A DNA stretch of 64,000 nucleotides from Spirochaetota bacterium (GTDB lineage Bacteria; Spirochaetota; Spirochaetia; Treponematales; Treponemataceae). The notes beneath the pieces are model-generated. The model was not told the origin of the DNA, searched no databases, and was given only the letters and a program-made list of their open reading frames with translations. The position numbers and the translations under genes were made by a program. Below are positions 48,230 to 64,000 of the stretch, one piece after another; within the stretch, counting starts at the first letter, position 1, and each line of letters opens with the position of its first letter. The stretch spans positions 1-64,000 of the forward strand of contig JAEEQG010000140.1 in the NCBI GenBank assembly GCA_016285185.1. Direction: 5' to 3'.

Positions 48230-48313
48230 ATTTTTTAATTTAGCACAACTTTTTTCAGTTTTCCAGTTTTTTTATACAGATTTTGTATTTTTTTATTGCA
48301 GACAGTATTGAAT

Positions 48314-49348: not shown

Positions 49349-49996
49349 TCATTCAATCCTCCCTACTGCTTTAGTGTTTACAAATTGCGGCAGAAAGTTT
49401 TTTACAAAGTTTTCTACCAGCATCTTGTAGTTTTTACAATAAAAAAGCGCAAGAGAAATCTGGGTTTCACTCATACAAGAGTTGTATTCCAAATCTCCTG
49501 CGCTTTGAGCGTTTAAAAGCTCTTCTTCGCTGTATATGAGCAGCGTTGTAAGCAGGTCCGCAATATTTTCGTTAATAGTAAGAAAAGCTGCTTTTGCTGC
49601 CGGAGTAAGCTGCTGATATTCTTTAATGTCAAAATCCATGCCGGAATAATTTATTAAAGCCCAGTGAGAAATTTCATGGGCTATGGAATAGAGAGCCTGT
49701 TTGTTGCCGCTGCGGGCTTTGTTGTATACGGATTCTCTTATTCTTATTTCATGAGAGTTTGCAGAATGGCGATAACAAGCCTGGACACTGTCCTTATAGT
49801 TCCAGTCCTTATCCGCAATTATGCTGAACATAAAGTTGCTGTCTGCCTCACAAAGTTTAATCTCTGCAATGGTAAGTGCAGGAAAGCTTTGTGAGGGAGT
49901 AAGCCCAAAGATTTTTTTAAATTCCAAAGCCATCTTCTTAAAATCAACTATCATCATAACAAGTACAGTGCCAAAGATGGTTAATTGCTCTGCCAT
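49349..49996 (-). CDS. ImmA/IrrE-family metallo-endopeptidase
   Basis: A 215-residue protein with an HEISH zinc motif at 107-111 in SIAHEISHWALIN. ImmA-like peptidases cleave a partner XRE-type repressor to switch genes on, in mobile elements and stress responses. AGGAGG precedes the ATG. The gene begins 12 bases after an XRE regulator, the canonical pair. The N-terminal 20 residues include a short hydrophobic stretch that could be a membrane contact. Its target is presumably the partner repressor. Confidence 0.85.
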   Translation of the reverse strand: MAEQLTIFGTVLVMMIVDFKKMALEFKKIFGLTPSQSFPALTIAEIKLCEADSNFMFSIIADKDWNYKDSVQACYRHSANSHEIRIRESVYNKARSGNKQALYSIAHEISHWALINYSGMDFDIKEYQQLTPAAKAAFLTINENIADLLTTLLIYSEEELLNAQSAGDLEYNSCMSETQISLALFYCKNYKMLVENFVKNFLPQFVNTKAVGRIE

Positions 49997-50008
49997 TCTG
50001 TTTACCTC

Positions 50009-50392
50009 CTACATAGGCGTAGCTTCCGATTTGATTTTTTGCAGAAAGTCCTTAACTTCTGCCAGTTGTTTTCTGTCCATCTGCGACAGGTCATGTGCAA
50101 ACATAACAGCCGCATCCACGTATTCGGGCAGGAGTTCCTGCTGAATACCCGCAAGTCCGATTTCGACCTTTTCTCTTGATTCTGCTACAAGCCGGGCAAA
50201 TTCAAGTTTTTGTTCCTCTGTAAGACTGTAAGCCTTAAAAAGGTTGTCTTTCATATCTTCCGGTATTTTTCTCTTGTCGTTTTCGATTGCCGAAAGATAA
50301 GCGGCAGAAAGGCCAAGTTTTTCTGCCATATCGCCCAAGCTCTGTTCGTTGTCGATCCGCAACTTTCGTAGAAACTTTGCGATTTCTGTCAT
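50009..50392 (-). CDS. XRE-family helix-turn-helix regulator
   Basis: A 127-residue protein with an N-terminal lambda-Cro-type HTH (LGDMAEKLGLSAAYLSAIEN, about 19-38) and a helical C-terminal region ending EVKDFLQKIKSEA. GAGGT precedes the ATG. It probably represses its own operon with the ImmA-like protease as antirepressor. No phage structural genes are next to it, so this may be a domesticated switch. Confidence 0.88.
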   Translation of the reverse strand: MTEIAKFLRKLRIDNEQSLGDMAEKLGLSAAYLSAIENDKRKIPEDMKDNLFKAYSLTEEQKLEFARLVAESREKVEIGLAGIQQELLPEYVDAAVMFAHDLSQMDRKQLAEVKDFLQKIKSEATPM

Positions 50393-50408
50393 AACTACCT
50401 CTGTTCTT

Positions 50409-50507
50409 CGCGGTTAAGACCGCGCTCCTTTTATGATCAGACCTTTTAATCTCCTGTCTGATTCTCTCGCTTGTATAAAAAATACTACAAACATTTTAAG
50501 ATGTCAA
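50409..50507 (-). promoter_or_regulatory. XRE operon promoter and structured leader
   Basis: On the minus strand TTGACA (50502-50507), 17-base spacer, TATTTT (50479-50484). The ~80-base leader contains two hairpins: ATCAGAC / GTCTGAT (50436-50462) and CGCGGT / ACCGCG (50409-50424). Confidence 0.65.
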
Positions 50508-50558
50508 TACAAAAATAATAAATAGTTTACAATTTGTGAATATTTTAGAAAATTTTGT

Positions 50559-50665
50559 CTGCGGTGTCTCCCCTCGCACATCTGCACCCTCTCCCCTCGC
50601 ACATCTGCGGTGTCTCCCCTCGCACATCTGCACCCTCTCCCCTCGCACATCTGCGATGTCTCCCC
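50559..50665. repeat. 23-bp tandem repeat, alternating two variants
   Basis: Four full units and a part unit start at 50559, 50582, 50605, 50628 and 50651. All share the core TCTCCCCTCGCACAT; the bases after CTGC alternate between GGTG and ACCC, so the true period is 46. It is much more GC-rich than its surroundings. The rest of the 346-base gap (50393-50738) holds the XRE promoter and a TATAAT near 50710-50716 for the next gene. Confidence 0.9.
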
Positions 50666-50738
50666 AAAATTAATTATGTTTTTCCCCAAGAACCGGCTGT
50701 TTCGTGGTATAATAACAAAAATACAGGAGGTTTAATCA

Positions 50739-51035
50739 ATGATTATTAATGGCGAGATGGCGGCAAAGCCACGTTTTTATTTCCGCAATGACCTTCTGCA
50801 TGTTCGGTATAATGTAGACCGTGCAGTTGAATTGACAAAAGAAGAAAAAGAAGAGCTTATCGCTAAAATAGAATCCGGTGCAGACAAACATGAAACTCTT
50901 AAGGAACTTTGGAAACGCCTTATCGATACGGAGAAAAGACCGCTAATTAAAGACGGTATTAAATGTGCAATAGAAAAATATGGTGCTGGTGAAAACTTCG
51001 GGAAAAAATTCGAAAACAGCGACTTTAAGAATTAA
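50739..51035 (+). CDS. Small hypothetical protein
   Basis: A 98-residue, charged, helical protein (LTKEEKEELIAKIESGADKH, TLKELWKRLIDTEKRP) that I do not recognise. A strong ribosome site (AGGAGG) lies just before ATG 50739 and a TATAAT box about 30 bases upstream. It lies between the GC-rich tandem repeat and the AT-rich spacer that leads into the BREX locus, so it may mark the edge of the island. Confidence 0.6.
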   Translation: MIINGEMAAKPRFYFRNDLLHVRYNVDRAVELTKEEKEELIAKIESGADKHETLKELWKRLIDTEKRPLIKDGIKCAIEKYGAGENFGKKFENSDFKN

Positions 51036-51289
51036 CGTAATTAAAATACATTCGAACGATATGGTAAAACATTACAGAAAAAGCAAAAGAGATTATGCAC
51101 GCTTGTAAAACTTTTGATCGTAATATATAAAAGTAATTGAACGAGTTTGTGAAAAAATCCTAATGAAATAATGATAAAAACTGGAATAGCTTTAGGATCA
51201 AAAGATGTATCTTTGGATTTTTGCCTTTTGGTTAAACTCTATATAAATTCCGTTACAGTTATAATTATATTTAAGCATTAAGAAAAACA

Positions 51290-51364
51290 ATGACAATTAC
51301 TTATTAGTATGATATAATTTACTATCTATAAGAATTAGATTGAGGTGTCTTGAAGAGATACTTC
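51290..51364 (+). promoter_or_regulatory. Candidate BREX-operon promoter and leader hairpin
   Basis: In the 382-base gap 51036-51417, which otherwise shows no gene, there is ATGACA (51290-51295), 17-base spacer and perfect TATAAT (51313-51318). The leader of about 95 bases carries a hairpin (GAGGTGTCT 51342-51350 with AGATACTTC 51356-51364, two G-U) without a T-run. The region is strongly AT-rich. Confidence 0.6.
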
Positions 51365-51417
51365 TTAATAATTTGCACTTTTCAAAAATGATTATTATTT
51401 ATTTCTAAGCATACTTA

Positions 51418-53556
51418 ATGAAGGGTATGAAAGTGACAGATTTTGAAGATAATATATTCCAACTAGAGTACAATAATCAGTTGGACTATACTTATTCTAC
51501 TCCAATAAAATGTATTCTATTTAATAATGAGATTCCTGGAACCTTTACAGGATGGAGTTCTCTTTATGTGCAAATTCTTAAAACGCTTAGAAAGCAATAT
51601 CCTGATATAATAAAGGCAAATACATTTCTGACTGAAAGAAAAAAAAGAATTGATTTGGTCGATAAGTCGAAAATTTATCAAATTCGAAGATGTGCTATAA
51701 TTGAATCCAATTTATATGCAGAAGTGAATTTGAGTGCAAAAGATATCATTTCTAGAATATTTTACTTATCTATTATTTGCGGATTAAAAAAGGATGATTT
51801 ACGAATTTTCTATATAAAAAAGCATATGGAGAATCCATATACAGAACCTTGTGAGCAAAAAGATAAAAGTAATAATTTTTCAAAGCCGGCAATTACCAAA
51901 AAAGGTCTAATCAACAAAGCTGAAGCGATAAGAATCAATAATACAGCTGTATATATTCGCTTAAAATCAATGGCAAGTGTTTATGATGATAAAAATGAAT
52001 TGGATATATATTGGATTAAATCAAAACTGGGGCTTCCGATAGATATTGATGACTTAAAAATTATACTTGATGAGATTCCATGGATTAAAAAAATTCAAGA
52101 AGGCATCTATTCGTTTTCTAAAAATATAAAACCACATTTGGATTTTGAAAAAGAATCTTTTTTACTTGTTTTAAGCTCAAGATATCAAAATGGAATACAG
52201 TTTGATTCTATTGACCTGGAGAATTTTAGAATGTCATATAATGATATTATTGGTAAACCAATCAATATTACAGATAATGAATTGGAAAATTGTCTCCATG
52301 ATTGCGGAGTGTTATATAAAGGGCGTATTTTCCCTGCTGAAGGTATATTAAATGATACTGCCAAAAGAAGATTAATGGATTACATTCATACAAGTTTCAA
52401 TAATGGTTGTCAAGTTCTGTACTATAAAGCGATTTATTCGGAATTAAAAGATGTGTTTGTTAATTGTTTTAATCTTGTGGATGAGAAAATGCTAAAAGCT
52501 TATCTTGAGTATATATGTGAGCCTTATGAATTCTTTTTTGATAAAGATTATATGACAAAAGAAAAAAATATAAAACTGAATCACAGTTTTGAAATAGAAA
52601 ATTATTTGAAAGCTAATGGAAAACCATTATCCTATGAAGAAATATATACTGGTTTGTCAAATGTATCTAAAAATATAATAATCAATGAGATTAGAAGTAA
52701 TCCTAATATCCTTCTTAATGAAAAGGAGCGTTATTTCCATATAGATATATTTGATATCTCTTCTGAAGAAATGGATATGATAACTAGTTTTATTAGAGAT
52801 GATATTGAGAATTATGGGTATTGTATTTGGTCAAGTGTTTTTACCAAAATAAAAACAGAAATGCCTATCTTTATAGAAAACAATGTATATCTTTCATCCT
52901 TGGGTATTCGAAAAGCTGTAGCAAGAAAATTGTCAGGAAGATTTGATTTTGAAAATGAAGTGATTTGTCATAAAGGTGCAAAAATAAGTATGGCTGATGT
53001 ATACCGACTTTATGGGCAGCATCATGCGCCTTTTTCAGATGACGATCTATATGCTTTTTCACGGGAAATCAACGGAGGAAATATATATTTTGATTCCTTA
53101 TCTGAAACCACTGCTAGAGTAAGTAAGAACTTATTTGTTTCTAGAGACGATATTTGCTTTGATGTTGAAGCTACAGATAATGCTATTTCAACATATCTTG
53201 AAACTGGATATATGTTGATAAGAGATATTGATTCCTTCTTGGTTTTCCCGAATGTTGGATATGAATGGAACGAGTATTTGCTAGAGACTTATTTGATGTA
53301 TTTCAGTAAGAAATACATTTTGTCAAATAACGGACGTTCACTTAATAATGTGGCGGGAGCTGTAGTAAGAAGAGGAAGTGGATTTGATGAATTCGCAGAT
53401 GTATGTGCAGATGCTATTGCAAAAAGTGGATGTGAATTAACAAATAATAAGGTACTTGATTATCTTGGTGAAGTTAATCTTTTGACAAGAAGAAGTTATA
53501 AAAAGATTGATTCGGTATTAGTGAAGGCTAAGCAAATTAGAAACAGGAAGGAATAG
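51418..53556 (+). CDS. Unknown 712-residue protein heading the BREX-4 operon
   Basis: Not recognised as a named family. The N-terminal ~125 residues form a compact domain (CILFNNEIPGTFTGWSSLYV, LKTLRKQYPDIIKANTF) reminiscent of the SW-x-x-LY-V domain seen at the start of several Firmicutes defence proteins. From about 150 on the protein looks like a string of winged-helix units, each with a pattern such as GKPLSYEEIYTGL then a hydrophobic hairpin (ILLNEKERYFHIDIF), another at KISMADVYRLYG, and a last near DSFLVFPNVG. No catalytic motif, membrane helix or cysteine cluster is visible. Its stop is 5 bases before brxP, so it is co-translated with the system; DNA recognition or regulation is a reasonable guess. 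ATG 51418 lacks a good ribosome site; ATG 51427 is an alternative. Confidence 0.75.
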   Translation: MKGMKVTDFEDNIFQLEYNNQLDYTYSTPIKCILFNNEIPGTFTGWSSLYVQILKTLRKQYPDIIKANTFLTERKKRIDLVDKSKIYQIRRCAIIESNLYAEVNLSAKDIISRIFYLSIICGLKKDDLRIFYIKKHMENPYTEPCEQKDKSNNFSKPAITKKGLINKAEAIRINNTAVYIRLKSMASVYDDKNELDIYWIKSKLGLPIDIDDLKIILDEIPWIKKIQEGIYSFSKNIKPHLDFEKESFLLVLSSRYQNGIQFDSIDLENFRMSYNDIIGKPINITDNELENCLHDCGVLYKGRIFPAEGILNDTAKRRLMDYIHTSFNNGCQVLYYKAIYSELKDVFVNCFNLVDEKMLKAYLEYICEPYEFFFDKDYMTKEKNIKLNHSFEIENYLKANGKPLSYEEIYTGLSNVSKNIIINEIRSNPNILLNEKERYFHIDIFDISSEEMDMITSFIRDDIENYGYCIWSSVFTKIKTEMPIFIENNVYLSSLGIRKAVARKLSGRFDFENEVICHKGAKISMADVYRLYGQHHAPFSDDDLYAFSREINGGNIYFDSLSETTARVSKNLFVSRDDICFDVEATDNAISTYLETGYMLIRDIDSFLVFPNVGYEWNEYLLETYLMYFSKKYILSNNGRSLNNVAGAVVRRGSGFDEFADVCADAIAKSGCELTNNKVLDYLGEVNLLTRRSYKKIDSVLVKAKQIRNRKE

Positions 53557-53561
53557 TTGAA

Positions 53562-55904
53562 ATGTACACTTATGAGTGGGACTCATTAACAGGAGGATAT
53601 ATATTAACGCCAATGCCGTTGGCATTCTCAAAGGAGCCGCGTCCAGTTTACTATAAAGAACTTGATGTTTTAGGATTTGACAAGTACTGGGCTTATGATA
53701 AAAATGATAGCTTCCCTTACATGTGGGCGGAAGCAAATAACTATTATTATAGGGGAAGATTGGTTGCGAAAATAAAGGGAGGAACATTATATTCAGCTCC
53801 AGAGATAATACTTATAGAAGAACCTGAACCTGAAGGCTATTCATTGAGATTTGTTGATATACCGGCAATGGTTAATCATAATAGGGGAATAATGGAACAA
53901 TTAGTTCAGGATACAATTAAGAAAATATATAATACATATGTTAAATATAAAGATAAAGTTGATGTCTATTACGTAGCATTTTCAGGTGGAAAAGATAGTG
54001 TAGTTGCTTTAGATTTGGTACAAAAAGCATTGCCGCATAATGAGTTTAAAGTATTGTTTGGTGATACGGATATGGAATTCCCGACGACTTTAGAGTTAGT
54101 TAATAAGGTATCAAGAGAATGCGCTCTTCAAAATATTGAATTCTATACTGCTAGAGCACCAAAAACAGCAGACGAAAATTGGGATGCATTTGGACCCCCT
54201 GCGAGGAAAGTAAGATGGTGTTGCACGGTTCATAAAACAGCTCCGGTAATTAATAAAATTAATGAGATACTGCAATTGAAATATGTACGTACAATGATGA
54301 TAACAGGTGTAAGAGGTGACGAAAGCGCGAGCAGATCTGACTATGATGAACTAAGCAAAGGTAAGAAAATTGCAGGACAATACAGTTTTCATCCTATACT
54401 AGAGTGGTCGTCCGCTGAAGTATATTTATATATGTATGATAATAATCTTGAATTTAACGAAGCATACAAGTTGGGATTTAATAGAGTCGGTTGTATAATG
54501 TGTCCTAACTCCTCTGAAAAGCTCGAATATATGAAGAAAGTTTTTTTTGAAGATGATGTCAATCGATTTACAAAAAAGATTATTAATAATAGTTCGAAGG
54601 ATCTTTCTGGAAAAAATGCTGAAAAGTTTATGGAGGTTGGAGGCTGGAAGACACGGCTTAGTGGTCGTGAATTAAAATTTACGGAAGAGGAGCGCTTTAA
54701 TTTTGAAGAAAAAAAAGGTGATTTTGTCTTTAGTGTAATACAACTAAGCAATAAGTGGAAAGAATGGTTTAAGACTATTGGAACAATAAAGGAGATAGAT
54801 AATAACAATTACATATTAGAGTATGATGGCGTTGAACGCCATTGTACTATAGAAAAAAATGAAAAATATGACATTATTCGAATTGAAAATACTTCAAAGA
54901 CAAAGAATTCTATTGAATTTGTATATTATTTTAAAAGTATTCTTGCTAAAACACAGTATTGTATTCGCTGTGGTGTTTGTGAGGCGGAATGTCCGTATAG
55001 AAATATTATAATGAATCAAAATAGTGTGAATATTTCTGATAAGTGTATTAAATGTCATGAATGCCTTAAAATACTAAATGGCTGTTTATATTATAATTCG
55101 ATAAGAGGGAGTAAAACTATGAAAAAACTTACAGGTATAAATAAATATTTGAGTGTTGGAATTGATGCTAATTGGCTTCAAAACTATTCGAAAGATAATT
55201 TATATGAACCTGGAAACAGAAAAACTGATGTAATGTTTGGATTTATGTCGGATGCTGAGATAGTAAAAAAGAAAAAATTAACAACAATAGGTGAGATAGT
55301 TTTTAAATATGATCTTGATGATGAATTGCCATGGGCTATTATGCTGTGTAACTTGGCATATACTTCTCAATATGGATGGTTCCTTAAAAATATCCCTTTT
55401 ATGGATACCATTACACTAGAGTCGGTAGAATTTAGATTAAAACAAGAGAATGTTAATGATAAGGCAATTAGCGAATTCTGGAATGGATTTAAGGTAATAT
55501 TAGATACAACAAAGCCACTAAATACAATTGGTTTTGGTATTCCTGATATTGAGGATAAAATTACAAAGTCTGGGGATGTAAAAAAGAAAATGATTTCATT
55601 TTATCGTAATCCTTGGAAGAATCCAGACGAGAGAGTAATCTTATATTCCATGTGGCTTTTCGCCGAGAAATGTGGAGGACGTAGACAATTTACTTTAACC
55701 GAACTGTTAGATTATTCGATTGATCGAGTTGGAATTAGTCCTGCCCAGATTTTTGGACTTGACAGAGACACGATGGAAAGAATCTTAAATGGTTTAACAT
55801 TTAATTATCCTGATTTTGTTGAAGCAAGGTTTACTCTAGGATTAGATAATATAACATTAAAAGGAAATATGGATTCTACAGAATTATTGAAGCATCTGTT
55901 TTAG
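53562..55904 (+). CDS. brxP: BREX-4 protein BrxP: PAPS reductase + ferredoxin + DUF4007-like
   Basis: A 780-residue multidomain protein. After a ~100-residue N-terminal region comes a PAPS-reductase / DndC-like ATP-pyrophosphatase domain (about 105-330) with SGGKDS at 141-146, CC at 220-221 (RWCCTVHK) and GCIMCPNSS near 310. A ferredoxin module has C467, C470, C473, C477 (CIRCGVCEAEC) and a second cysteine set (CIKCHECLKILNGC). The C-terminal ~250 residues (GIDANWLQNYS, LPWAIMLCNLAYTSQYGWFL) resemble DUF4007, a family found with DNA phosphorothioation genes. It probably activates DNA or another target with ATP and sulfur. GGAAGGA precedes the ATG. Confidence 0.88.
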   Translation: MYTYEWDSLTGGYILTPMPLAFSKEPRPVYYKELDVLGFDKYWAYDKNDSFPYMWAEANNYYYRGRLVAKIKGGTLYSAPEIILIEEPEPEGYSLRFVDIPAMVNHNRGIMEQLVQDTIKKIYNTYVKYKDKVDVYYVAFSGGKDSVVALDLVQKALPHNEFKVLFGDTDMEFPTTLELVNKVSRECALQNIEFYTARAPKTADENWDAFGPPARKVRWCCTVHKTAPVINKINEILQLKYVRTMMITGVRGDESASRSDYDELSKGKKIAGQYSFHPILEWSSAEVYLYMYDNNLEFNEAYKLGFNRVGCIMCPNSSEKLEYMKKVFFEDDVNRFTKKIINNSSKDLSGKNAEKFMEVGGWKTRLSGRELKFTEEERFNFEEKKGDFVFSVIQLSNKWKEWFKTIGTIKEIDNNNYILEYDGVERHCTIEKNEKYDIIRIENTSKTKNSIEFVYYFKSILAKTQYCIRCGVCEAECPYRNIIMNQNSVNISDKCIKCHECLKILNGCLYYNSIRGSKTMKKLTGINKYLSVGIDANWLQNYSKDNLYEPGNRKTDVMFGFMSDAEIVKKKKLTTIGEIVFKYDLDDELPWAIMLCNLAYTSQYGWFLKNIPFMDTITLESVEFRLKQENVNDKAISEFWNGFKVILDTTKPLNTIGFGIPDIEDKITKSGDVKKKMISFYRNPWKNPDERVILYSMWLFAEKCGGRRQFTLTELLDYSIDRVGISPAQIFGLDRDTMERILNGLTFNYPDFVEARFTLGLDNITLKGNMDSTELLKHLF

Positions 55905-55915
55905 GAGGATGAGAC

Positions 55916-58900
55916 ATGAGCTATCGTGATTATTTTGACATTGATCCGGAATACTTTCCACAAGTTGATAAAAAAATCATTGATACTGTTCCGGATTTGT
56001 GGAAGAAGTTCTATCCACATCCATCGTTTGTCACATTGTTAAAGGCGACGGTAGATGTCTTAAAAAGAAAACACAAACTGTCTATATGGGTTGACGGTGC
56101 ATATGGTACAGGTAAGTCTCATGCCGTTCTGACACTTAAAAAGCTGATTGAGGCAAATCAGGAAGAGACAAAATCATACTTTGAGAAATATAAGCTTGAT
56201 ACATTCCTGTGCAAGGATTTGATAGCTCAGAAGGAATCCGGAAAGATTCTTGTTTGTCACAGATATGGTTCTTCTGATATTAACAGTGATGTTGATCTTA
56301 TTGTGGCCATTCAGGAAGGGATAGAGAAGGCTCTTGAAGAAAATGGAATAGAGAATCAGGCGAGCTCTTCATTGAGAAATGCACTTATCAGATTTCTTGA
56401 GAATAATGAGAATAAACAGAGTTTTGATATATTTGCTTCTGGTTCTTCAAAGGATGTGCTTGGAGGCGATAAGGCTGATGATGTTTTAGAAAAACTTCGT
56501 TCATATGAGGATGATGCACTTCGAACTTTGATTGCAAAACTTTTCAAGGTTAATGTGGTCAGAGGCAGTTTTGCAATGAATACAGGAGAACTCTGTGATT
56601 GGATTCGAGAGGTAATTGAAAAGAATAATCTTTATAATCTGATGTTTATCTGGGATGAGTTTTCGGAATACTTTGAGAATAACTTGCATCATCTTACTGG
56701 TTTTCAGCAGATTGTCGAGCTATCAGCAACAGCTCCGTTCTGCTTATTAATTGTAACACATAAAGCTGAAGGATACTTTTCAGACGGTGATCCGGACAAG
56801 AAAAAGATTTTAGACCGTTTTGTTTCGCCGGTGCATATTTCTCTCCCTGAAAACATTGCATTTGCCCTTATGCATGAAGCCATGAAAGTTACAGATGATG
56901 AAGTATTGGCTGCAAAATGGGAAAAGAATAAAGACAGTCTTGATAAGAGAACGATGCAAAGTCGAACAGCCGTAAAGAATAAGATTGGGCTAACTGATGC
57001 GGATCTTTCTAATGTGTTGCCAATTCATCCGTATGCAGCATTGTTATTGCAACATATATCCATTTATTACACATCTACTGCTAGAAGTATGTTTAACTTT
57101 ATCAAGAATGATGAGGGTGAAGACGTACAGGCATTTCAGTGGTTTATTGATCATTATGATTTTTCTTCGCAGAATCCGTTTATCACAGTTGATATGCTTT
57201 GGAGCTTTTTCTATGAAAGTGGACAGGATAAGCTTGCGTCCGGAATAAAAGAGGTTCTTAGCTGCTTTACTCCAAAACTGAATAAGGATTTGATTGAAGA
57301 TGAGAAGAGAGTCTTAAAGACTATCCTTCTGCTTCAGGCTGTATCAGATCGAATGACAGGAAACAGAGACATTTTCCTTCCGAATGAAAAGAATCTTACG
57401 CTCGTATTTGAAGGTACTGATCTCGAATTTCCTGCAAAGAATATTGCGAAGAAACTTCTTAATGACCATGTGGTTACAAGAACACCATTAACGGGAGATG
57501 TATTCTCATATTGCTGCAAGAATACAGGTGCATCAGTTGATTCGACTCCGTTCATTAAGGATGCTAAGAATAAGTCCACAAAGGATCTGTCATTCATGAC
57601 AGGTTGTGATTTGAGAAGCACTATTGAGTTTACCGGAGCGCTTAAGGCACGCTACAGCTTTGCATATGCGACATTATCTGATTTTGATAGTGAAGCCAAA
57701 AAAGCAAATAATCCTGATTCTGCTGGGAATAAACTTTTTGCTATTACTACGATAGCACGTGATGACAGCGAACGAGTGACGATTCAGAAAAAAATAAAAT
57801 CTTTCTTTGACTCATATCCGGAAACATCGGTTGTCGTAATTGATGCATCAAATACTGTTTTAGGAGATGCCAATTATAGCGAATTTGTTGAGAATTACGC
57901 AATGGCACTTGCAATTGGAAATAGTGATATAACGCAAAGAAAAACATATGAGGGATATGCTACCGATGTATTAAAAGATTGGGCGAAGAGAATAAAGAAC
58001 GGAGATTTTTATGTTTATTCCGAGTACACTGTTGAAGGAGATAGGGTAGCCAACTTTAATGATCTTGCAAGTAAGTTGATGGAGATTAATAAATTCCATT
58101 ATCCGGACAGCCTTGAAGCGGCATTTCCGAGTGTGCTTAATACAATGTACGATGCCAACTCGCTTTCGGCAGGGGCAGCATGCGGTATTACCGAGGAGAC
58201 AAAAGGAACTTTTAGATCCGGAAACGAAGCTACAAAGCTTGAAAATGCTTTGAAGGATGCATGGAAGATTGAAAAGTATTGGGAGAATTCGCATTCATAC
58301 ATTTCAAAACTTAAGAAAACAGTAGATGGGTTGATTGAGGAAACCTATAAGGATCATGACAGAATATCGATTGCCCAGATATATAACATGTTAAAGACGG
58401 AACCTTACGGATTTATGCCTTGTAATCTCACAGCGTTTATCCTTGGCTTTATTCTTAAGGAGTATGCAAACGGAACTTTTTCATACAGCGACAATGTAAC
58501 AACCGATACACTTGATAAAGATAAGCTCGCAACAATGATATCGGAGATTATCAAGCAGGAAAATACTCCTGATAAGAGGTATAAGGACAAATACATTGTT
58601 ACTTTAACAGACTCCGAGAGATCGTTTAATAAGGCAACATCTGAGGCGTTTGGCGTTAATCCAAAGTATTGCGTGTCAATCACCGATACAAGATCACGAA
58701 TCAGGGAGCAGATGAAGACATTTGCATTCCCTATTTGGCTTGTTGAGTTTGCAATTGACGATGTTATTTTCAACACAAGCAAAGATGTCGTGATTAAGCT
58801 TATTGAATGCTTTTGTGCTATAGCAAACAACCAAAACGATGGCAAAGGAAAAACGGATAGTGATATTGCAAAGGAAATCGGAGATATCTGTATCGAGAAT

Positions 58901-60100
58901 CCGGATGCTGTTGAGGACTTAAAGAGTGTTCTTACAAAGGATAGATGTAAGCAGGGAATGTTAAAGTACCTGGAAACATATGAAGGTGGAAAGCTTGTTA
59001 CGATAGCAAAGTCTGTAGGAGACGGTGGGCAGTATATTAATCATTTGGAATATAAGTTCAGTTCTGATGCCGCGAATTGGGTGTGGAACAAGGAAACTGT
59101 ACATGGAAAGATTGATGAATTGATCATAGAATATGAAATTATCGAATATAGCAATAAAGTCCTTGCGAAGAACACCACATATGTTGAAACAATACGTGCT
59201 TGGTGTGACAAGATTGGACAGATCAGACTGGCATATTCGGTTATCAAGAACAATATAGAAGAAGGCAAAGAATTTTATGAAATACTCCGAGATCTGAAGA
59301 AAGCAAATAATCTATTAGACTCACAGAAAAAGAAGTTCTTGGAATTACTGATTGCACATGTTGATAATTTTAGGACATTCATGTTTTCCCAGGCAGAATT
59401 GTTTGAAAAATCATGTTCTCATTACTTAGACGGACTTACCTTGGATGATGTCAAAGTTATAATAGAAGATGATCTGTATAGCTTTAAGGGATCGTATATC
59501 TCTGAACCGGACAAGTATTATGAAAAGGTTCAGAAGGCAGTGGCCATATATAAGGAATCCTTGGAGCATGTAAAATTGCGCAAGCTATGGAAGGAGCTTA
59601 CAGATACCGACAGACCATTTGATTGGTCTACAAAGTATCTTATGCCTATTATGGCCATGGTTCCTGATCAGGAAGCTGCGATTGCAAGGAAGGTATTTTC
59701 GACCATCAATTCCGGTAAGAATGATGCAGAAGCTATAAATAGTGCGATGGATTACATATCAAAAATGTCTTATGTGGACAGATTGAATAGCAAGGAAGAA
59801 CGAGATAAGGCTTTCGCTGAAGCGTTTTTGAAAGAGTATACCGTTTTGTTCGAGAGTGTAGATGTTGTTAAGGATTATTTGAAGAAGCATGTGTCCGAAC
59901 AACCGGATTTCTGGCTAGGGAGCAAGGATGTAGCCACAAAAATCAAGAATCTGGCAACGGCAAGTTATATGGAGTCCGGATACGGAAAAGCAAAGAAGAT
60001 TATAGACGGTATGGAGCCGGATGAAGTAAAAGAATATCTTAAACAACTGATTGAGGATAATATAGTAGTTGGTGTGGAGATCATCAAAGGTAAAAAATAA
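55916..60100 (+). CDS. brxC: BREX ATPase BrxC
   Basis: A 1394-residue P-loop ATPase of the BrxC/PglY family, present in every BREX type. Walker A GAYGTGKS is at 61-68 and Walker B ends in D247-E248 (FIWDEFSEYFE). The N-terminal SYRDYFDIDPEYFPQVD is characteristic. The rest is a very long helical region without recognised catalytic motifs. It is thought to assemble on DNA with PglZ and the modification component. AGGAGG lies before the ATG, 11 bases after brxP. Codon use here is somewhat less AT-biased than in the 712-residue gene and brxP, so the island may be a mosaic. Confidence 0.93.
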   Translation: MSYRDYFDIDPEYFPQVDKKIIDTVPDLWKKFYPHPSFVTLLKATVDVLKRKHKLSIWVDGAYGTGKSHAVLTLKKLIEANQEETKSYFEKYKLDTFLCKDLIAQKESGKILVCHRYGSSDINSDVDLIVAIQEGIEKALEENGIENQASSSLRNALIRFLENNENKQSFDIFASGSSKDVLGGDKADDVLEKLRSYEDDALRTLIAKLFKVNVVRGSFAMNTGELCDWIREVIEKNNLYNLMFIWDEFSEYFENNLHHLTGFQQIVELSATAPFCLLIVTHKAEGYFSDGDPDKKKILDRFVSPVHISLPENIAFALMHEAMKVTDDEVLAAKWEKNKDSLDKRTMQSRTAVKNKIGLTDADLSNVLPIHPYAALLLQHISIYYTSTARSMFNFIKNDEGEDVQAFQWFIDHYDFSSQNPFITVDMLWSFFYESGQDKLASGIKEVLSCFTPKLNKDLIEDEKRVLKTILLLQAVSDRMTGNRDIFLPNEKNLTLVFEGTDLEFPAKNIAKKLLNDHVVTRTPLTGDVFSYCCKNTGASVDSTPFIKDAKNKSTKDLSFMTGCDLRSTIEFTGALKARYSFAYATLSDFDSEAKKANNPDSAGNKLFAITTIARDDSERVTIQKKIKSFFDSYPETSVVVIDASNTVLGDANYSEFVENYAMALAIGNSDITQRKTYEGYATDVLKDWAKRIKNGDFYVYSEYTVEGDRVANFNDLASKLMEINKFHYPDSLEAAFPSVLNTMYDANSLSAGAACGITEETKGTFRSGNEATKLENALKDAWKIEKYWENSHSYISKLKKTVDGLIEETYKDHDRISIAQIYNMLKTEPYGFMPCNLTAFILGFILKEYANGTFSYSDNVTTDTLDKDKLATMISEIIKQENTPDKRYKDKYIVTLTDSERSFNKATSEAFGVNPKYCVSITDTRSRIREQMKTFAFPIWLVEFAIDDVIFNTSKDVVIKLIECFCAIANNQNDGKGKTDSDIAKEIGDICIENPDAVEDLKSVLTKDRCKQGMLKYLETYEGGKLVTIAKSVGDGGQYINHLEYKFSSDAANWVWNKETVHGKIDELIIEYEIIEYSNKVLAKNTTYVETIRAWCDKIGQIRLAYSVIKNNIEEGKEFYEILRDLKKANNLLDSQKKKFLELLIAHVDNFRTFMFSQAELFEKSCSHYLDGLTLDDVKVIIEDDLYSFKGSYISEPDKYYEKVQKAVAIYKESLEHVKLRKLWKELTDTDRPFDWSTKYLMPIMAMVPDQEAAIARKVFSTINSGKNDAEAINSAMDYISKMSYVDRLNSKEERDKAFAEAFLKEYTVLFESVDVVKDYLKKHVSEQPDFWLGSKDVATKIKNLATASYMESGYGKAKKIIDGMEPDEVKEYLKQLIEDNIVVGVEIIKGKK

Positions 60101-60115
60101 TTATGAGGTGTGCGT

Positions 60116-62407
60116 ATGACTCTCGATAAAATAGAAAAAAGAATCGAAGCACTATTGACTTCAGATAAAAGATGGCCTGTAATTGTTGATTTTTCCAACA
60201 AAAAAAATCTTAAGGATTTTCTGTATCATTTTAAGGTCGGAAGCAATGAGATCCTTTCTACAGGGAAGTTCTGCGGGAAAGATGGAACGATGAAATCGGA
60301 GGAACTGTCGGATTGTATAGATAACAATTCGGAGAATTTGTTTATAGTACATCTATCTGCCTATTTAAAGCTTGATGGGGAATCCGTGCTTAAGAATACG
60401 CTCAGGTCAATTATTTCTAAAAGCATAGGTGGACATGTTGTAATTGTTACATATCAATGCCGAAACTATCTAAAGTTTACAGACAGCAGATTCTCTGAAA
60501 GAGGTCAGATTATAATCGCAGATGGTGATTTTGATGATACACCGGATATTTGTCTGATATCACCGGATCTTTCAGGTGCCTTTATGAAATCATATGCAGG
60601 ATTTGAAAAGCTTGGAGAGGCATACGAAACGAGCGGAGATAAAGAAATATACATTGCTACGGATGTAGACAAGCAGATATTCCCTTTATCCCTTGTCAAT
60701 GTAATACAGTTAAGCAATGGTTATGACATTTTGTGTACTAAAGATTCAAGAATAAAGAATGTCCCTGAAAGCTTTGGTGATGCATATCGATGGAATGGAC
60801 TTCTGAAGGTTATGGGATCCAATGATTTTTCGTATGTTATTGAAATGGAATTTGGTTCCAATGCTAATCTGACAAGTTGTGCAAAACAATATCCAACATA
60901 TACTGATGACAGAAAGTGGCTTTATTATATTGCTATATGTGTTTTGGGTGCAAAAAAGAATTCATATCTATCATTGGCAATGGTTAATTCTACAAATCAC
61001 AAGGATTTTGCAAAGAGCCTTTTTAGATCCATCCTTACAGTTGACAGGTCGGATGAAGATTTTCAGAAACTGTACGAAGAACGAAAGGAAATACTGAAGT
61101 CTTATACAAATTATACAATATATTTAAGTGAGATTATGGATTTCTGTAAGGTGGTGTCCACAAAACAGGAAGATGGTATTTATTACCTTACGGATTTGAC
61201 TAAGCCAGAAAAGGAAAAGGTAATTGAATGGTTGGATACGTATGGGCATAATTACTCAGCGGAACAGCTTGGTTTTATTTTAAAAAATGTATATCCGGAT
61301 CTTGCAGACTATCTTTCAAAATATAGGTTTAAGAATGAACTGCTTGATAATTATTTCGAGGCCTATAGGTATCAGAAATTGATAAACAGAATATTGCCAA
61401 GTTTTGAGGTGACTGTGGAAGAACAGGCAACTGAACTTGGATTTGTTAGTGCGTTAAAACCGAGGACACAGCTGTTTGATAAAGTGGATCTGAAAAATTC
61501 ACATGTTTTCTTCTTTGATGCTTTGGGCGTTGAATATCTTGGCTTTATACAGGCTAAGTGTAATGAATACGGATTGTCAGCAAATATTTCTTGTGGAAGA
61601 TGTGAACTACCGTCATTAACATGCTTTAACAAGGACTTCGTTGAAGTTTGTATTGAAAAGGGTTGTCCTATATCCGATATAAAAGATCTTGATGAGATAA
61701 AGCATCATGGCAAAGATAGCTTTGATTATGAAAAGACTAAGCTACCAATATACTTAATACGTGAATTGGAAATCATCGATGATTTGTTAAGTAAGATTCA
61801 CTCTGCCGTTATCGGAGAACAGTATGAAAAGGCGGTTATTCTTTCTGATCATGGAGCCAGCAGACTTGCTGTATTGCATGAAACTGAAAACATCTGGGAA
61901 ATGGAAACAAAAGGCGAGTACTCCGGTAGGTGCTGCCCTAAAAATGAAATAAATACAAAACCAGATTTCGCAATCGAAGAAGCCGATTACTGGGTTCTTA
62001 CAAATTATGACAGATTTAAAGGCAGTCGGAAAGCAAATGTTGAGGTTCATGGTGGTGCTACATTAGAAGAGGTAACGGTTCCGATTATAGAGATTACAAG
62101 AAAAGCAGAACAGGTAGAGGCATTTATTCTTGACGAATATAAGATTATTACATTGGCAGCTAAAGAAATACCGGTGCTTCGAGTATACGTAGGAATACTC
62201 AGTGATAGCATTTTATTAAAGGTCAATGATCAGTTTTATGATGCTAAGCCTACAGGGGATAAGTATATCTATGAATGTCAATTGGTGGATTGCACGAAGA
62301 AGGGATTTTACTACGCAGATATTCTGAATGGATCAGATGTATTGTCGGTTAATAATTCGTTTGAAGTAACCAAAAAAGGAATGACGGAAGTCAACCTATT
62401 CGATTAA
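60116..62407 (+). CDS. pglZ: BREX phosphatase-domain protein PglZ
   Basis: A 763-residue protein with an alkaline-phosphatase-superfamily core in its C-terminal half, the defining component of BREX. Metal-site motifs are FFFDALGVEYL (D468), VILSDHGASRL (D578, H579) and VEVHGGATLEEVTVP (H645). The N-terminal ~400 residues are PglZ-specific and the last ~90 residues form a beta-rich tail. ATG 60116 is chosen with GAGGTG 6 bases upstream; a GTG at 60110 is in frame but overlaps that site. The target of hydrolysis in BREX is not settled; nuclease activity has been suggested for relatives. Confidence 0.92.
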   Translation: MTLDKIEKRIEALLTSDKRWPVIVDFSNKKNLKDFLYHFKVGSNEILSTGKFCGKDGTMKSEELSDCIDNNSENLFIVHLSAYLKLDGESVLKNTLRSIISKSIGGHVVIVTYQCRNYLKFTDSRFSERGQIIIADGDFDDTPDICLISPDLSGAFMKSYAGFEKLGEAYETSGDKEIYIATDVDKQIFPLSLVNVIQLSNGYDILCTKDSRIKNVPESFGDAYRWNGLLKVMGSNDFSYVIEMEFGSNANLTSCAKQYPTYTDDRKWLYYIAICVLGAKKNSYLSLAMVNSTNHKDFAKSLFRSILTVDRSDEDFQKLYEERKEILKSYTNYTIYLSEIMDFCKVVSTKQEDGIYYLTDLTKPEKEKVIEWLDTYGHNYSAEQLGFILKNVYPDLADYLSKYRFKNELLDNYFEAYRYQKLINRILPSFEVTVEEQATELGFVSALKPRTQLFDKVDLKNSHVFFFDALGVEYLGFIQAKCNEYGLSANISCGRCELPSLTCFNKDFVEVCIEKGCPISDIKDLDEIKHHGKDSFDYEKTKLPIYLIRELEIIDDLLSKIHSAVIGEQYEKAVILSDHGASRLAVLHETENIWEMETKGEYSGRCCPKNEINTKPDFAIEEADYWVLTNYDRFKGSRKANVEVHGGATLEEVTVPIIEITRKAEQVEAFILDEYKIITLAAKEIPVLRVYVGILSDSILLKVNDQFYDAKPTGDKYIYECQLVDCTKKGFYYADILNGSDVLSVNNSFEVTKKGMTEVNLFD

Positions 62408-62421
62408 AGGAGGGAAATCAA

Positions 62422-63858
62422 TTGGAAGATAAACTGCGGGATTATTTCGAGGAGATGGTTGTTTATAAGGATCTTAAAAATAATAATTTCTTCTCATCCT
62501 TGGGGTTGCCAGCGTTTCTGAGGGATTATTTGCTAAAAACCTTCTGCGATGATTATGGTCATTTTGATATAGATGAAGTAACTTCATTCATAAAAAAATT
62601 CATTCCTAAAAAAGAAGAATGGATGAAAATAAAGAACCAGATCATATACGAAAATGAAACGGTTCAGTTACTGACAAAAATTGCAGTTGATATAAATATC
62701 AAGACGGGAGAAATATCGTTTGCTTTGCCCGATTTTGGAGTTACGGAAAAAGAAACGATGATAGAGCCGTCCATATGGGAACTATACAAAAATGATTTGA
62801 TTCACAGCGGAGAAGTTTGGGGAATTATCAAGCTGGGTTACAGGCAACCGGATGATACTGTTAAGCCAAAAATCCCTGGAAAGATTAAGCTTGTTGGATT
62901 TAAGAATTTTTGTCCTTATACGGTAGATATAGAATACTTTAAGGATATGAGAAGTCATTTTTCGACAGAAGAGTGGATAAATATAGTATTAGGGGCGATT
63001 GATTACAATGCAGAAGGATATGAGACTGAATTGCAAAAGCTTTCAATGCTTACGAGATTATTGCCTTTTGTAGAAAAAAGGGTAAATATTATCGAGCTTG
63101 CGCCTAAAGGTACGGGAAAAAGCTATGTATTTGGACATGTAAGTAAATACGGACTGCTTACAGATGGCGGTAAGGTTACTAGATCGAAAATGTTCTATGA
63201 TGCAGTAAGAAGAAAGCCTGGCTTTATTTGTGGTCCTGATTATGTAGCAATTGATGAAGTAAAACTTGTAAGCTTCGGTGATGAAAACGAGATGAGATCT
63301 ATATTGCAGGGATATCTTGAGTATGGAAAGTTCAATTCAAATGGCTATGACGGTGAGTCTGATGCAGGGGTGGTTTTTCTCGGAAATATTAAAGAGGAAA
63401 AAATGAATGAATACGAATACATGTTATCAGAGCTTCCAAATTTGTTTCAGGAAACAGCTTTACTTGATAGAATTCATGGTTTCGTAAAGGGATGGGATAT
63501 TCCCAGAATGAATGATGGTTTGAAGATAACAGGATGGGCATTGAATTCCGAGTATTTCTGCTCTATTCTGCATGAATTAAGGAGCGATACTTCATATAGA
63601 GCAATTGTAGAAAAAATTGTTAATGTTCCTGAACATGCTGATACTAGGGATACTGAAGCAATTAAACGAGTATCTACAGCATATTTAAAACTTCTTTTCC
63701 CTCACGTTAGGTCTGAATTGGATATAGATAAACAGGACTTTACCGATTATTGTCTCACCCCTGCTATGAGGATGCGACGTATTATAAAATTACAACAAGG
63801 TATGATTGATACGGAATACAAGGGTAAGGACGTACCTTTTTTGACAGTCAAGGAATAA
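62422..63858 (+). CDS. brxL: BREX Lon-like ATPase BrxL, short form
   Basis: A 478-residue AAA+ protein. Walker A is ELAPKGTGKSYVFGH with K233; Walker B is near DYVAIDEVKLVSF (about 273-285); a sensor-like FLGNI follows. It starts at TTG 62422, which follows AAGGAGGG. Long BrxL proteins run to about 680 residues with a C-terminal Lon-protease-like domain; this one stops after the ATPase, with no sign of a frameshift, and matches the length of the short BrxL subgroup. Related BrxL forms ring assemblies on DNA. Overlaps nothing; the next gene starts 2 bases after its stop. Confidence 0.92.
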   Translation: MEDKLRDYFEEMVVYKDLKNNNFFSSLGLPAFLRDYLLKTFCDDYGHFDIDEVTSFIKKFIPKKEEWMKIKNQIIYENETVQLLTKIAVDINIKTGEISFALPDFGVTEKETMIEPSIWELYKNDLIHSGEVWGIIKLGYRQPDDTVKPKIPGKIKLVGFKNFCPYTVDIEYFKDMRSHFSTEEWINIVLGAIDYNAEGYETELQKLSMLTRLLPFVEKRVNIIELAPKGTGKSYVFGHVSKYGLLTDGGKVTRSKMFYDAVRRKPGFICGPDYVAIDEVKLVSFGDENEMRSILQGYLEYGKFNSNGYDGESDAGVVFLGNIKEEKMNEYEYMLSELPNLFQETALLDRIHGFVKGWDIPRMNDGLKITGWALNSEYFCSILHELRSDTSYRAIVEKIVNVPEHADTRDTEAIKRVSTAYLKLLFPHVRSELDIDKQDFTDYCLTPAMRMRRIIKLQQGMIDTEYKGKDVPFLTVKE

Positions 63859-63860
63859 TA

Positions 63861-64000
63861 ATGGAGAAAAAATGCTTAGCATGTAAGAAGTCACCATTAG
63901 ATAAAGATACTATAGGGATAAATAAAAAACTGCTTGGAAAAGATATAAAAACTTTTTACTGTATAGATTGTCTTGCTAATTATTTGGATTGTACAGTATC
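63861..64000 (+). CDS. Cysteine-rich protein, 3' end beyond window
   Basis: Open frame from ATG 63861 to the right edge (46 full codons). The start has CLACKKSPLDKDTIGINKKL followed by TFYCIDCLANYLDC, so two CxxC pairs probably bind zinc. Not recognised as a named family. It begins 2 bases after brxL, which suggests it belongs to the same operon as an accessory or is the next gene of the island. The product is too incomplete for a function. Confidence 0.65.
   Translation, partial: MEKKCLACKKSPLDKDTIGINKKLLGKDIKTFYCIDCLANYLDCTV

Follow-up and report, generated by a model that had tools for sequence, protein, structure and literature searches.

Type-4 BREX acts by phosphorothioation, in which sulfur takes the place of an oxygen in the DNA backbone, with BrxP as the PAPS-reductase component (PMC11931770; type-4 section of the survey PMC12839542), and brxPCZL represents one of three gene families that synthesize phosphorothioate (PMC11931770). 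In the type-4 section of that survey, a small zinc-finger protein has already been reported beside a cysteine desulfurase, and desulfurase and zinc finger are given for 56% of the type-4 loci (PMC12839542). With respect to the choice of the modification site, the specificity of DndE in the Dnd system has only been proposed to come from other Dnd proteins (PMC9239217). Here we describe an operon of type-4 BREX in a Treponemataceae genome (contig JAEEQG010000140.1), in which the core genes are preceded by an additional gene, designated U. The whole stretch of DNA analysed, 64,000 nucleotides in length, is referred to as the window.

Organization of the operon

The genes are arranged on one strand (+) with near-zero gaps in the order U-brxP-brxC-pglZ-brxL-zinc finger-cysteine desulfurase. 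The first gene of the operon, U (51418..53556; 712 aa), belongs to no known family and is separated by 5 bp from brxP (53562..55904; 780 aa), of which the product was matched by PADLOC BrxP with 731 bits over residues 1-778. These are followed by brxC (55916..60100; 1394 aa), encoding an AAA+ ATPase of the BrxC/PglY family (PADLOC BrxC, 752 bits), by the type-4 pglZ (60110..62407; 765 aa; PADLOC PglZ, 298 bits; NCBIfam BREX_PglZ_4, 469 bits at a cut-off of 140 bits), which judging from homologues probably starts at 60116 rather than 60110, and by brxL (62422..63858; 478 aa; PADLOC BrxL, 671 bits; Pfam BrxL_N and BrxL_ATPase). The family-model scores for BrxP, BrxC, PglZ, and BrxL exceed chance, and brxP, brxC, type-4 pglZ, and brxL are all present and intact, adjacent, in order and on the same strand. 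A previous reading of this DNA from the letters alone (the sequence-only reading) had claimed a complete type-4 core in this order, with which the family models and the gene order agree; it had also placed a 712-residue gene 5 bases before brxP and a cysteine-rich gene 2 bases after brxL, and open reading frames are indeed located at these positions. Besides the genes named here, no other large open reading frame was detected within 51418-66723. Since BrxP carries PAPS_reduct, a PAPS-reductase component replaces the BrxX/PglX methyltransferase.

A predicted operon promoter (51290..51318, +), ATGACA-17-TATAAT with TG before the -10 element, is located 100 bp 5' of U. In a consensus scan, this promoter-like site was the sole 11/12 match in 50400-53700 and the best of 23 sites.

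The contig extends to 74,644, i.e., 10.6 kb past the end of the window. The zinc-finger gene (63861..64000 and on to contig position 64058, +) starts 2 bp after brxL and encodes a cysteine-rich protein of 65 aa with two CxxC pairs (CxxC...CxxC). Past the window end, a DndA/SspA-like cysteine desulfurase of 397 aa is encoded at contig 64033-65226 (DndA, 456 bits; SspA, 456 bits). The two genes share 26 bp (L012:333-358), and this overlap suggests translational coupling. Because a zinc finger beside a desulfurase has already been reported in type-4 BREX, the cysteine-rich gene is not specific to the present locus. The sequence-only reading had taken both extra genes as functional parts of a variant: for the cysteine-rich gene this holds in the sense of a known type-4 partner rather than of a locus-specific part, and for U in the sense of a gene stably kept in the operon across one large portion of type-4 BREX. 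The operon itself was correctly recognized by that reading, which did not include the desulfurase lying past the window, the phosphorothioation chemistry or the exchanged segment of brxP. The core and the 3' end are a fresh example of the already described type-4 BREX.

At 21 bp past the desulfurase, a gene for an AlbA_2 (Schlafen-type)/Fic-like-C protein of 491 aa was found (contig G000:C4 65248-66723; L012:1548-3023), of which an 82% identical copy is present in another genome of the same genus without BrxP. Further downstream, in or near the island (L012:6158-6975), a two-gene pair resembles by eye a toxin-antitoxin module of the DUF3791/DUF3990 type (ADP-ribosyltransferase-like).

Genomic setting

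A contamination of 8% is reported for the assembly; contamination was rejected for the present contig, of which the flank matches 7 of 7 other genomes of the genus. The G+C content is 0.30-0.38 from ~50.5 to ~70 kb, as against 0.43-0.48 outside. A genome of the same genus, 98-99% identical in the flank, diverges at contig position 48,294 and carries there, as judged by eye, a macro-domain-like gene instead. The closest operon backbone found was that of an Acetatifactor (Lachnospiraceae) metagenome-assembled genome, and, provided that the host is a spirochaete, the operon was therefore likely transferred between phyla.

Outside the operon near the left edge of the island, a pair of an XRE-type regulator and an ImmA/IrrE-like metalloprotease was noted by eye at 49349-50392 (-); a pair of HTH and ImmA/IrrE genes is also located just before brxP in the BREX-4 locus of a Methanosphaera plasmid (L147). 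Between the XRE gene and the operon, a tandem array at 50558-50665 consists of 2.3 copies of a 46-bp unit with 98% matches (or 4.7 copies of a 23-bp unit) and is G+C-rich inside the low-G+C island.

Exchange of the central segment of BrxP

The Pfam matches in BrxP were PAPS_reduct, a PAPS-reductase-like sulfur transferase, at residues 137-316 and Fer4, a ferredoxin-type cysteine cluster, at residues 462-503. The PP-loop SGGKDS (53982..53999, +; residues 141-146) is invariant in the alignment. An SspB/DUF4007-type domain at residues 526-778 was detected solely when profiles were compared with those of DUF4007 proteins encoded in Ssp-type loci (hhalign, probability 97% (96.9%)), while Pfam alone gave no DUF4007 match in BrxP.

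When pairs of operons with close backbones were compared by sliding identity, the identity of BrxP dropped near residue 331 and returned near residue 690. The operon in the window and that of L045 are 91% identical in BrxC, 86% in PglZ, and 96% in BrxL, yet 29% in BrxP 331-680; L047 and L038 are 80% identical in BrxC and 91% in BrxL, yet 34% in this segment. Conversely, L045 and L038, with distant backbones (BrxC 46%, PglZ 37%), have segments of 59% identity, and those of L045 and L037 are 58% identical. The tree of the segment, in which the branches are long, rejects the backbone clades window+L045 (AU p 5e-6) and L047+L038 (AU p 2e-54), and the PglZ+BrxL tree rejects the group formed by the segment (AU p 7e-4) and L045+L046 (AU p 1e-51). 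These AU p-values are somewhat flattering because the clades were chosen after the identities had been seen; the likelihood differences in the tests are large, ranging from 68 to 1085 units.

Sliding identity and conflicting trees altogether indicate that BrxP residues ~331-690 (54552..55631, +), containing the ferredoxin and most of the SspB/DUF4007 domain, are exchanged between operons as a cassette. The pattern might alternatively be produced by fast diversifying evolution, for instance against phage inhibitors, with no exchange of a specificity cassette, as many comparisons show divergence of the segment while its cysteines and domain architecture are kept; near-identical operons, however, carry different cassettes. 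Fast evolution alone is insufficient because similar cassettes occur on distant backbones and the two trees reject each other's clades, and we regard this explanation as improbable. The exchanged cassette is probably the determinant of the phosphorothioation site.

Domains and predicted fold of U

No match to U was obtained in Pfam, NCBIfam or PADLOC; as the U family is not named in these collections, U was missed by automatic annotation. Two AlphaFold2 models of U gave pLDDT of 81 and 82. An N-terminal alpha/beta module (51442..51843, +; residues 9-142, about 12-134 in the model) is followed in the models by units of helix-helix-helix-strand-strand, repeated up to the C-terminal end. Alignment, AlphaFold2, and Foldseek together define a winged-helix array of about 6-7 units (51985..53553, +; residues ~190-712), of which residues 242-712 are, by alignment, the family-defining part. 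The best Foldseek matches were the winged-helix arrays of UFL1, SelB, Dcc1, and TFIIIC, for which only the type of module is informative because the TM-scores are low; against viral models, nothing was found at E <= 0.001.

The length of U varies from 693 to 1263 aa across the loci, with variation in the N-terminal part. The N-terminal module of the U in the window recurs as a protein in its own right next to a PLD-type helicase, and again at the C-terminal end of a GmrSD-type restriction protein, and other U proteins contain integrase-SAM-like stretches. The models thus predict for U a rod made of winged helices in tandem and preceded by N-terminal modules that are exchangeable. By analogy with SelB and UFL1, the ligand of these winged helices may be RNA or protein instead of DNA.

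Winged helices in the first gene of an operon, right behind the only strong promoter-like site, would also fit a repressor or activator that acts at the operon promoter and takes no part in the modification and restriction complex, and Sigma70_r4 and RNA_pol_A_CTD-like domains are present in relatives of U. An ordinary autoregulator, however, would be unlike U, which has 712-1263 aa, an array of 6-7 winged helices, and large N-terminal modules that vary and are shared with restriction proteins. We therefore consider autoregulation unlikely, even if it is the strongest of the alternatives for U, and prefer a role of U as a subunit of the complex.

Occurrence of U beside type-4 BREX

Two samples driven by BrxP were used, 391 genomes of one Clostridia class and 398 genomes of its phylum. 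Together they yielded 24 type-4 BrxP loci that were distinct and of full length, of which 23 were testable, one ending at a contig edge. Weaker BrxP matches (E ~1e-68 to 1e-90) were excluded from the BREX count, because a separate DUF4007/SspB gene lies close to most of the examined ones, in agreement with Ssp-type loci.

In 12 of the 23 testable loci, U precedes brxP, and the two genes nearly always overlap slightly or are separated by up to ~50 bp. In one locus (L134), an HNH-nuclease-like gene (by inspection; L134:5298-6014) lies between U and brxP; the N-terminal domain of this HNH-like protein resembles that of several U proteins. Two of the loci without U carry a short or partial relative at the same place, a distant relative of 535 aa with a HARE-HTH domain in L142 and a protein of 262 aa with only the N-terminal module (by inspection) in L033. 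Because about half of the type-4 loci are without U, the core chemistry does not require it.

The strong U subfamily (E <= 1e-50) was present in 6 of the 391 Clostridia-class genomes, all with type-4 BrxP and with U directly before brxP (Fisher p 2e-11 for the association of this subfamily with type-4 BrxP in the 391 genomes). Among 195 genomes of the family to which the window belongs, full BrxP was found only in the genome of the window and in one other (G001), and full U in the same two; the other BrxP-like matches in this family scored lower and belonged to the Ssp-like class. Two changes account for the distribution of U on the BrxL tree, compared with a mean of 6.2 after shuffling, and U is therefore clade-bound. 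The conserved part of U co-diverges with PglZ (Spearman rho 0.89, Mantel p 0.0005), the correlation with the identity of the BrxP cassette being rho 0.30. Judging from this co-divergence and its fixed place, U is part of the inherited backbone in one large part of type-4 BREX. It is not mentioned in the text of the type-4 section of the 2026 survey (PMC12839542).

A remnant operon was also observed (L040; G432), in which U is kept and brxP is truncated, with no other BREX genes within 12 kb downstream. Among phage records, U was found in one faecal contig only (MT835511); this 'Bacteriophage sp.' record from human faeces (L146; MT835511.1) carries a complete U-BREX-4 operon with desulfurase. 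No U was found on plasmids.

Relatives of U outside BREX

Among 17 genomes with any relative of U (E <= 0.001), 11 were without BrxP. Most of the non-BREX relatives scored E 1e-49 to 1e-88 against a profile built from 17 U proteins. Two of them are located directly behind M33C of the PDC-M33ABC candidate defence genes, and others stand alone. A strong bond between PDC-M33 and U was rejected, since a U-family gene was present in only two of nine PDC-M33A genomes.

The sequence-only reading had regarded homologues of U mostly away from BREX as evidence against its view; such a distribution was observed for the wide family and not for the BREX-linked subfamily, which in the sample was always accompanied by BREX. 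Members of the wider U family are also present where BREX is missing. The U in the window fits the BREX-linked subfamily, being located directly 5' of brxP and having a winged-helix C-terminal part of ~470 aa.

U could be an independent defence gene that lies by chance beside type-4 BREX in a defence island, as its wide relatives either stand alone or follow PDC-M33 genes and about half of the type-4 loci do without it. The position 5' of brxP is nevertheless constant, with gaps from short overlaps to ~50 bp, the gene co-diverges with the backbone, and the BREX-specific subfamily was not found elsewhere in the sample. Since the place and history of a hitchhiker would vary, this reading is disfavored, and we give it only a small chance.

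Discussion

We consider it reasonably probable that the operon is a horizontally acquired type-4 BREX defence system of phosphorothioation, in which U is the DNA-binding subunit of the complex and the BrxP cassette chooses the site. Within such a system, the desulfurase would supply BrxP with sulfur, the site would be chosen by the cassette of BrxP, which includes most of the SspB/DUF4007 DNA-binding domain, BrxC would drive and license the complex, and PglZ and BrxL would act on unmarked DNA. U would hold the DNA or scan it for the complex, and its N-terminal module could be used for sensing or for docking of a partner.

More tentatively, and at somewhat less than even chance, we propose that U is a seventh component, not described so far, of a large share of type-4 BREX and serves as a scanning subunit built of winged helices that is shared with other defence systems, and that the site choice of phosphorothioation resides in the BrxP cassette (~331-690), which is swapped like the target-recognition domains of HsdS in type I restriction-modification systems. 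The papers considered here do not appear to settle what determines the sequence specificity of phosphorothioation, and the exchanged BrxP segment offers a concrete, swappable candidate. U, for its part, is a winged-helix component present in more than one defence context and unnamed by Pfam, NCBIfam, and PADLOC.

The operon resembles the described type-4 BREX (BrxPCZL) in the order brxP-brxC-pglZ-brxL, in the SspB/DUF4007-type domain fused in BrxP, and in the zinc finger and desulfurase downstream (PMC11931770; type-4 section of PMC12839542). It differs in the addition of U before brxP, as observed in about half of the sampled Bacillota-type loci. With SspABCD/SspE, it shares an SspA-like cysteine desulfurase, DUF4007/SspB-like and PAPS-reductase domains, and an SspC-like ATPase, but it contains PglZ and BrxL, the SspB domain is fused into BrxP instead of standing alone, and SspE found no match among the operon proteins. 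The PADLOC candidate system PDC-M33 has a U-family gene in common with the operon in two of the nine sampled PDC-M33A genomes, while U is missing from the other loci examined; PDC-M33 contains no BREX genes, and PADLOC gave no matches to M33A, M33B, and M33C in the present operon. In HsdS of type I restriction-modification systems and in BrxX/PglX, a central variable segment lies between conserved ends and is exchanged independently of the rest of the operon. The BrxP cassette is likewise central and exchanged independently of the remaining operon, but is different from these proteins in that it sits in a sulfur-transfer protein, where it is a candidate for the choice of the modification site.
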